NCBI GenBank assembly: GCA_026874595.1
Contig: CM049314.1
Coordinates: forward strand, 30,141,729-30,205,728
Source: Sipunculus nudus
Lineage: Eukaryota; Annelida; Sipuncula; Golfingiida; Sipunculidae
Reading direction: 5' to 3'
Length of the DNA: 64,000 nucleotides
The stretch's first letter is position 1; each line of letters begins with the position of its first letter. Under the pieces are notes generated by a model that was not told where the DNA came from, made no database searches, and was given only the letters and a program-made list of their open reading frames with translations. The translations under genes and the position numbers were made by a program. This document shows positions 31,286 to 34,200 of the stretch, one piece after another.

Positions 31286-34200
31286 CTGAAAAAAGAAAAT
31301 ACAAATATCAGTCTCAACTTTAATACAGTTAAAATTTATCAGCACCTGTAAAGAAAGGTATCTGCATTCCTATCTCTGTGAAATTACTTATTAAGTTAAA
31401 CATATATACTTAAACTTATAAGGATCAGCTTGATGATACCAGGCTAGTTGCCAAAACATTAAGTTCAATTGTCTTGCCTATTCTTGTAAATTTATTTTAC
31501 ATTACCAACCCTGAAAAACATAATGTGCAAATGGGAAAACTGTTTCATATTGTTTGGATTTATATTTTTTCATATTTATTTATCATTTTTACATATTATA
31601 TATATGGCAGCAATGTTCTGTTTTCATATATGGGGACACTAAAACACTTGATTTACAAACCATCAAAGCATTCAGTAATAAAGTGTTGAAAGGTTGATCA
31701 GTGATTTTTTCAGATGAAAAACCACTCAAACTTTCCCTATGAAAAATAAGCAATTTTAAAGAAAAATAACTCTAATGCCTTCACAACTGTAAATGATTTC
31801 TGAAGTACTACAAGCCCAAAATATTGAATATCTAAAGTCCAGTAAACTGAGTAAATGTTCATCTAATTCATTATCATATGGTTACCCAACACCTTAAAGT
31901 CAGTTTAAATGTCAACTAACTACACTGGCAAAAGGTCAGTCACTCCCTTTTATTAGAAAATGCATGAGTGACAGACTGAGCCATACTGAAAAGTTCAGTA
32001 AAATCTCCATCAGGTAACAAAACTGATTTTCGGAAAATGTTTCACTAAAAGCCTAACGAAGCCACAGGAAAAAGGAAAGGTCACCATTAAAATGGGATTG
32101 GTGCATTGGCTTGCTCAATCCTGAACACCTCCCCCAGAGTGTAATATTAAGACTACTATCCATGTGCCCCAATATCAATAAATTAGTTTGGATGGCAAAG
32201 GCCGTAAAAGTTTTCAAAGACTCAGAATAAGTAGATTCATTAAATTAAATGCCTATGACTACAAATACTGTACACTGACCTGTTCCAGGGATGGCGCCCC
32301 AACAATCTGCAGATCTTCTTCATTGTAGCCTTCACTTAAAAACTGATGCAGATGCTGAAAACTCTGCTGTACATTAACCTACAACACACAGTAAATCTCC
32401 AGGATCACCAGCCCCTATACACAATCCTACCAGTAGTCCTTATGTACCTGTGCTATATAATGAAGAAAAGATGGAATCTTCACCAATATTAATTAACAGA
32501 GAATGTAAGTACTGAGAAAATCAAAATGGATGTCTGCACATCTATAAAATATAAATTTTTCTGTGTAGATTGCCATGATATATAAATAAGGACACTTCCA
32601 CATCCATTTCGCAAAACATGTCCCATACTGCAGTGCATTAGATATCAACGAGAATTTTTTATGAATATCATAAATACCACCTGAAAATATAATGATACTA
32701 TAACATACTAAGGAATATTTAACAATGAAGGGAAAACATTTCAAATACATGCAGTGCAAGGAAAACCTTTAAGAACTACACTGCTTTACAACTGGTTCAC
32801 ACTCTTAGTTGGCTTACTTTGATTTGTTTAAACAGGATGTATTCTGTGTCCTTATTGGTTCACACTCTCAGTTGGCTTACCTTGATTGGTTTAAACAGGA
32901 TGTATTCTGTGTCCTTATTGGTTCACACTCTCAGCTGGCTTAACTTGAATGGTTTAAACAAGATGTATTCTTTGTCCTTATTGGTTCACACTCTCAGTTA
33001 GCTTACCTTGATTGGTTTAACCTGGATGTATTCTGAGTCCTTATTGGTTCACACTCTCAGTTGGCTTACCTTGATTGGTTTAAACAGGATGTATTCTGTG
33101 TCCTTATTGGCCAGATACAGTGCCATGCTCTGCTGGACCACTGTGACCCGTTTCTTGAGATTCCTGTAGGTTTCTGATACTGTATCGTGAATTTTCTCGG
33201 GGCTGGCAAAGGGCTGCTGCCGTAACGCTACTTTAGGATTGCCTTCTTGTCCTTGCATCTGGTTGATCACAGTAGCCTGAAGGAAGCATAAAAAAACAAT
33301 CATGCAGGCACAGCCCAGTCATCCGAATCCCTATTTCAGGGGGAATCAGAGGATAAAGAGCACACTACACCTCTATTATGATACATGCTATCTCTGTATG
33401 AAGTAATGTAAGGTATATCTATATATACTCATATACAGAGCATAGTTTCGACCATTTTTTGATAAAAACACACCACAAATTGGGATTTGAGCGACTGTGG
33501 GCACAGATAAAAAGTAAAGTACCAACATTCTAATAATTGTAATACAGATTGGAATCTGAGTAAATCAATCATCAGAATTCACATGAAATAAAAATGTACA
33601 TCTAATCTATGTTCACTAGCAATCTGCAGTTTGAGGAATACAAGGCTCAGCCATGTGGGCATTCACTTATTTGTGCATAAACGACTGTACATTTGTGAAT
33701 ATTCCTTGATGACATTCCTAAATTCTGACCATGTACCGGATCCACAACAAAATCTAATTGATTCTTCATTGGCCCATTTGTGAAATACCATGAAAATTTC
33801 ACAAGATTTTATTTTTTATATATAAATTTTATTTAGATTCAAGATTCCTTTCATGAGTGGTGAAAACACACAAACACACAACAGGAATGAATGCATACCC
33901 ATCCTGGTGGAGCAGCAATCAGTAAATTATTATTTCATAGACAATTTATGATCCCAAACAGGGACAAGACAACCCTGCCGATATATGAAACTGCATATTA
34001 TGTCATAAAGACTTTGTTATCACTGAGTTTCTATGAGATTCAAATGGCACAAGTGCCTTGACACAAGTTGATTTTGTGTATCACTAATGTATTGTTAAAA
34101 TCCAGACAGAAATGTTGCTAAGTAAAGGAGGTAACACAAACATGTACATGTTATCAATCACAAAGACAATATTACTGTGGATCAACTCTTTTCAATGTTT

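Follow-up and report, generated by a model that had tools for sequence, protein, structure and literature searches.

A minisatellite across an exon/intron boundary of COG3 in Sipunculus nudus, and donor-carrying arrays elsewhere in the genome

Minisatellite-like tandem duplications at exon/intron boundaries are known from the amphioxus genes Adh3, BflGb6 and BflGb9, where they have been termed 'mirages' (PMC3087553). As described in the available part of that report, they occur at either side of the boundary; the Adh3 units measure 10-72 bp and those of BflGb6 150-160 bp, AG/GT is kept in many, not all, of the copies, and two BflGb6 haplotypes hold 6 and 3 units. The Adh3 data, together with RT-PCR of the globins, suggest to its authors that regular splicing is undisturbed (PMC3087553). 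The accessible sections of a second report describe similar boundary repeats in lancelet PGBD5 and cite TnC (PMC3902484), and those of a third state that tandem repeats at a human exon-intron boundary may form new introns (PMC2812944).

Like the amphioxus mirages, a tandem repeat in COG3 of Sipunculus nudus spans the boundary, has the authentic exon copy at one edge, retains AG/GT in part of its copies and has a unit within the Adh3 size range. Unlike them, it lies in a different gene and is known from the sequence of one assembly alone.

The array at the end of COG3 exon 21

The window, a 64,000-nucleotide stretch of contig C9 (C9:30141729-30205728) with a GC content of ~35%, belongs to a genome of 1.43 Gb in 153 contigs. 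On its minus strand, at 33110-32793, five tandem copies follow one another at an exact spacing of 63 bp, as the original prediction had stated, and TRF calls the array at 32793-33110 with 91% matches and 0 indels. The host gene had been named as COG3, and Pfam bears this out through other exons of the gene, which match COG3_N (E 1.1e-12) and COG3_C (E 1.4e-15). Exon 21 with the tail has no COG3 match in Pfam, the only match being PKD_2 at E 0.018, below the PKD_2 cut-off, and the C-terminal region gave no match to solved structures at E up to 1. Together with the tail, exon 21 aligns with what we take to be the human COG3 sequence, and exon 22 is identical at 16/32 residues to what is presumably the human COG3 tail. 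A search of the 1.43-Gb genome gave a single match for the DNA of the locus, and likewise one for the exon 21 peptide. The features of the locus, with the slash marking the exon/intron boundary, are as follows.

33070..33276, minus strand: COG3 exon 21 (W21 in the original prediction), 207 nt
32379..33069, minus strand: COG3 intron 21, 691 nt, holding copies 2-5 and the intronic 22 nt of copy 1
32280..32378, minus strand: COG3 exon 22, 33 residues
31235..31285, minus strand: COG3 exon 23, 16 residues and the stop
33048..33110, minus strand: copy 1, equal to the consensus, donor AAG/GTAAGC, intron start 33069
32985..33047, minus strand: copy 2, 4 private changes, donor AAG/GTAAGC intact (33006)
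32922..32984, minus strand: copy 3, 5 private changes, TT at 32943 in place of the donor GT
32859..32921, minus strand: copy 4, equal to copy 1, donor AAG/GTAAGC intact (32880)
32796..32858, minus strand: copy 5, 3 private changes, AAA/GTAAGC (32817) as a weakened donor
32793..32795, minus strand: trailing CCA after copy 5, matching the CCA that opens copy 1, a putative microhomology
33049..33051, minus strand: in-frame TGA after VSQLRV, met via any distal donor or intron retention

The unit takes 41 nt from the end of exon 21 and 22 nt from the intron (CCAATAAG...ATCAAG/GTAAGC...GTGTGAA), rather than the 33 coding and about 30 intronic bases first proposed, and the final partial copy amounts to CCA. 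With a unit that spans the exon/intron boundary and five copies, the array has the structure of a boundary minisatellite, and the splice signal is retained in part of the copies, as GT in 4/5 and as full AAG/GTAAGC in 3/5. Since CCA stands at both ends, the breakpoint is ambiguous by 3 nt; the bases beyond the two CCAs differ (CTGG/CCA... versus GTGAA/CCAGTTG..., here with the slash at the array edge). The array would have been born by a single tandem duplication between the CCA in exon 21 and the CCA 22 nt into the intron, which would have copied the exon end together with its donor. The initial duplication may have been guided by this 3-nt CCA microhomology, although so short a match could be chance; growth to five copies would have come through later slippage or unequal exchange. 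Birth of a minisatellite from a splice junction, as originally proposed, is supported. The copies are alike at 63 bp, and the changes they carry are all private.

Three other minisatellites lie in the window:

57939-58387: period 22/44 bp
59063-59995: period 290/146 bp
16445-16884: period 146/47 bp, GGTCA-rich

Outside the window, at C16:44157300-44530205, exons matching PF00217 recur every ~6.3 kb in blocks of 11 and 13, giving 24 similar phosphagen-kinase copies among the matches listed. These copies match what we take to be an arginine kinase stretch at 61-65%, versus 48-51% for a presumed creatine kinase stretch, and a separate creatine-kinase-like gene at C3:69260542 matches the latter, likewise presumed, at 76%. 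Having relatives of both kinases, the genome is not decisively placed by them, and the molluscan haemocyanin family PF14830 gave no match in it or in the control genomes.

Divergence of the copies and choice of donor

Copies 2-5 carry changes at 12/252 sites, all private, and copies 2, 3 and 5 share none. Conservation above background, the mark of a regulated donor, was not found in this comparison of one array at low power, in which 2/36 positions of the donor 9-mers were changed versus 10/216 other sites (Fisher p 0.68). The exon-derived and intron-derived parts were changed at 8/164 and 4/88 sites, respectively (p 1.0), and 6/8 codon changes in the exon-derived part alter the residue, which fits sequence that is not read as protein. 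The pattern as a whole fits neutral decay, at numbers so small that weak constraint would escape. Draws under neutral decay contained some copy with 0 changes in 12% of cases; the identity of copy 4 to copy 1 over 63 nt is permitted, though not predicted, by such decay.

GT is found at 33069, 33006, 32880 and 32817, and TT at 32943. The predicted count of four GT donors and one TT stands, but only three of the four are at full strength: the computed pairing with U1 gives -9.5 kcal/mol for each AAG/GTAAGC donor (33069, 33006 and 32880), -4.5 kcal/mol for AAA/GTAAGC at 32817 and -2.8 for the TT site. The three intact donors top the ranking among the 59 GT sites of exon 21 and intron 21, by a measure that is blunt, since an unrelated GT at 32680, outside the array, scores -9.1. 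Donors 1, 2 and 4 score alike, so the letters of the sequence by themselves do not reveal the winner.

Use of a distal donor is predicted to add 63 nt or a multiple thereof and to meet the TGA (33051-33049), with the loss of 49 residues (33 + 16), just as had been foreseen. Intron retention yields the identical truncated peptide, so the array makes no new product. The distance from the TGA to the junction is 42 nt for donor 33006, 168 nt for 32880 and 231 nt for 32817, and nonsense-mediated decay follows a 50-55-nt rule. Splicing at 33006 or 32880 would thus give one and the same truncated protein, and at 168 nt destruction of the mRNA would be expected under the decay rule.

We consider it likely that the COG3 array is a neutral boundary minisatellite, a 'mirage', whose first donor is the one used. 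The spliceosome would take the donor at 33069, the boundary of the 207-nt exon, and remove copies 2-5 along with the intron, so that selection would see copy 1 alone; the array is probably without consequence for COG3 itself. The original prediction had cast the copies as competing donors and a possible switch, whereby the extra donors would set the share of COG3 that lacks the last 49 residues, or lower the mRNA via decay. Two of the extra donors do match the first in computed U1 pairing, and the truncation would probably matter because of the residues (16/32) that exon 22 shares with the presumed human tail. We nevertheless find regulation of this kind quite unlikely, as the donors decay at the background rate (p 0.68), two of the four extra ones are gone or weak, intron retention gives the same truncated peptide without any array, intron 21 holds neither AATAAA nor ATTAAA, and several arrays in other genes have periods that break the frame. 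We see no sign of a maintained switch, because the donor positions vary no less than the rest. Intronic polyadenylation was considered separately and rejected on the same lack of AATAAA and ATTAAA in intron 21.

A different possibility is dual-specific or recursive splicing, in which the AG/GT copies make each 63-nt period a GT...AG unit, removable as an intron of 63 nt or multiples; use of a distal donor would then still restore the normal mRNA, regardless of copy number. As motifs, such 63-nt units exist in the array, with AG/GT at 33070/33069, 33007/33006 and 32881/32880, and the available text of a study of human UBC and other tandem-repeat genes describes sites of this type in use (PMC10809524). 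Against this, pyrimidines before the three array AGs amount to 50-65%, versus 85% for the exon 21 and exon 23 acceptors (the real exon 22 acceptor has only 50%), while copy 5 has AA for AG and copy 3 has AG/TT. An intron of 63 nt would also be short for an animal, and we hold removal of the copies in this manner to be improbable. False expansion of a single-copy junction during assembly is very improbable indeed, for despite the identity of copies 1 and 4, the other three (2, 3 and 5) each lie 3-5 changes off the consensus with none in common, the contig is chromosome-sized (C9, 79.8 Mb) and the genome holds further such arrays.

Donor-carrying arrays elsewhere in the genome

Genome-wide and on both strands, triples of AAGGTAAG at gaps of 30-60 number 1493, versus 315 for the reversed word, and those of CAGGTAAG number 941 versus 251. 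Most of the triple matches listed are neighbours inside long arrays, and separate arrays were counted by eye. Among the matches listed, CAGGTAAG forms 15 separate arrays in 148 Mb and the reversed word 7 in 227.5 Mb, a density ratio of 3.3 (p 0.006) that assumes the matches listed to be complete across those 148 Mb and 227.5 Mb. As single words, CAGGTAAG and its reversal occur 46,239 and 37,054 times (1.25-fold), and the array ratio per word, again among the matches listed, is 2.6 (p 0.023). Extrapolation to the whole genome gives ~144 CAGGTAAG arrays (from 15) and ~195 AAGGTAAG arrays (from 4), of which an uncertain share would lie at boundaries.

We fetched 19 arrays, comprising all 15 listed for CAGGTAAG and 4/5 of those listed for AAGGTAAG, with the low-complexity array at C1:29290875 left out. 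The stop-free piece that reaches the array from the 5' side matches Pfam in 8/19 (E up to 0.023), with E < 0.001 in 6/19 and the curated cut-off reached in 4/19. These eight arrays, with their 5' matches, are as follows.

L035: PI3/PI4-kinase, E 7.7e-9, period 62
L036: class II tRNA synthetase core, E 0.0032, period 47/48; presumably a seryl-tRNA synthetase
L039: TPR, E 5.9e-9, period 62
L044: DOCK, E 4.5e-5, period 33
L045: FANCD2, E 9.6e-7, period 39
L048: PH, E 0.023, period 30
L050: ABC membrane domain, E 4.5e-6, period 42
L052: 3-hydroxyacyl-CoA dehydrogenase, E 1.1e-6, period 53

On the same side, L034 matches Microtub_bind alone, at E 0.039, and was not counted, and the 10 other fetched arrays have no 5' Pfam match, among them L040, which we take to resemble an SLC22 transporter. 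The 20 pieces tested from the 3' side of 16/19 arrays gave no match at E < 0.01, the sole one being DUF1158 at E 0.049 (L033), in a sampling that was unequal between the sides: 29 pieces were taken 5' (two of them inside arrays, L047 and L052) versus 20 shorter pieces 3'. The 3' set is without L035, which offers no 20-residue piece, and without L052 and L053, which reach the edge of the fetched stretch; for L041 the second-longest piece was used in place of the longest, which was too short. The shortness of the 3' pieces is itself a finding, as the stop-free run tends to be longer on the 5' side of the arrays: past the boundary, and with L052 and L053 dropped, the 5' run exceeds the 3' run in 14/17 arrays (medians 147 vs 59 nt, Wilcoxon p 0.002).

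At all eight Pfam-supported arrays, the peptide ends 0-2 nt from a canonical donor (AAG/GTAAGT, AAG/GTAAGC, CAG/GTAAGT, CAG/GTAAGG or CAG/GTAAGC). Donor-like 14-mers number between 5 and 71 per supported locus, counted over ~6 kb, and a small number of these may fall outside the array. The L039 array starts at the donor with 3 nt of exon, and so abuts the boundary instead of spanning it. Taking these eight together with COG3, and L036 (47 and 48 equally often) as 47, 4/9 periods are not multiples of three, so that splicing at a distal donor in those genes would change the reading frame. Divisibility by three, found in 5/9 of these boundary arrays, was rejected as a sign of function (p 0.14 versus one third). 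These arrays at exon ends, with up to ~70 donor-like sites at one locus and some periods that break the frame, favour a general first-donor rule and disfavour a switch specific to COG3.

Several further observations concern individual arrays. At L052:3509-7993 (C2, ~37.22 Mb), a 53-bp unit is repeated 84 times, with ~70 donor-like sites; the repeats start at the end of the 3-hydroxyacyl-CoA dehydrogenase exon and reach the fetched edge, so that the array may be longer. The L044 (33 bp) and L050 (42 bp) arrays are open and in frame for at least 30 codons past the first donor; distal donors there could therefore add peptide repeats instead of truncating the protein. For the acceptor word TTTTCAGG, triples number 1093 versus 239 reversed and single words 134,411 versus 87,276; with 9 separate TTTTCAGG arrays among the matches listed (233 Mb), no excess of acceptor arrays is claimed. 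Acceptor-like TTTTTCAGG or TTTCTTTTCAGG recurs every ~44 or 52 bp at C1:8484928-8488090 and C3:24039459-24041162, which are candidate acceptor-side boundary arrays.

Boundary arrays clearly exist in number in this genome, and the data are suggestive only of splice sites as hot spots of array birth. With the share of real donors assumed to be 20%, the excess of CAGGTAAG over the reversed word, 8/19 arrays give p 0.022 and the CAGGTAAG arrays alone, 6/15, give p 0.059; counting matches at E < 0.001 only, 6/19 and 5/15 are not significant (p 0.16 each). These counts are lower bounds, because Pfam detects part of the real exons, and the excess is unproven. Tolerance of arrays in introns, without preferential birth, may be a sufficient explanation. 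More tentatively, donors could be preferred birthplaces of minisatellites, leaving by extrapolation a few hundred boundary arrays in conserved genes, some with dozens of near-identical donors beside a conserved exon, handled by a rule of the first donor or of self-erasing AG/GT. If so, each such gene would in effect be a dose series, provided by nature, for competition between splice sites. The choice of one donor over others identical to it is a long-standing problem in splicing, usually approached with engineered constructs, and natural arrays with three to dozens of donors at exon ends in conserved genes would make that choice readable from RNA-seq. Among the papers listed in our literature search, which left subscription papers mostly outside, we came across no description of a comparable genome-wide collection of arrays born from donors.

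Comparison with known systems

Tandem duplication of AGGT, the Rogers model of intron gain, has been described as a source of introns in ATP2A1 and potato RdRp (PMC4974935). Going by the accessible part of that account, the COG3 array resembles it in having paired GT and AG sites and differs in that the duplicated donor sits inside an existing intron. Dual-specific AG/GT sites are also described within tandem repeats, with 77 human introns having a length that is a multiple of a surrounding repeat unit (PMC10809524). To the extent that the available text covers them, the human UBC sites are like those of COG3, where AG/GT recurs at the period of the tandem repeat; UBC repeats, however, encode protein monomers, whereas the COG3 copies are intronic and carry an in-frame stop, and their role as acceptors is putative.

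Boundary arrays would be raw material for the gain or lengthening of introns and are a plausible origin of some intronic minisatellites. Of more interest is that in this genome conserved genes carry further arrays of this sort where their exons end. The COG3 array is neither a one-off nor a new kind of element: as far as the available part of the amphioxus report describes them, it has the same structure as the mirages (PMC3087553).
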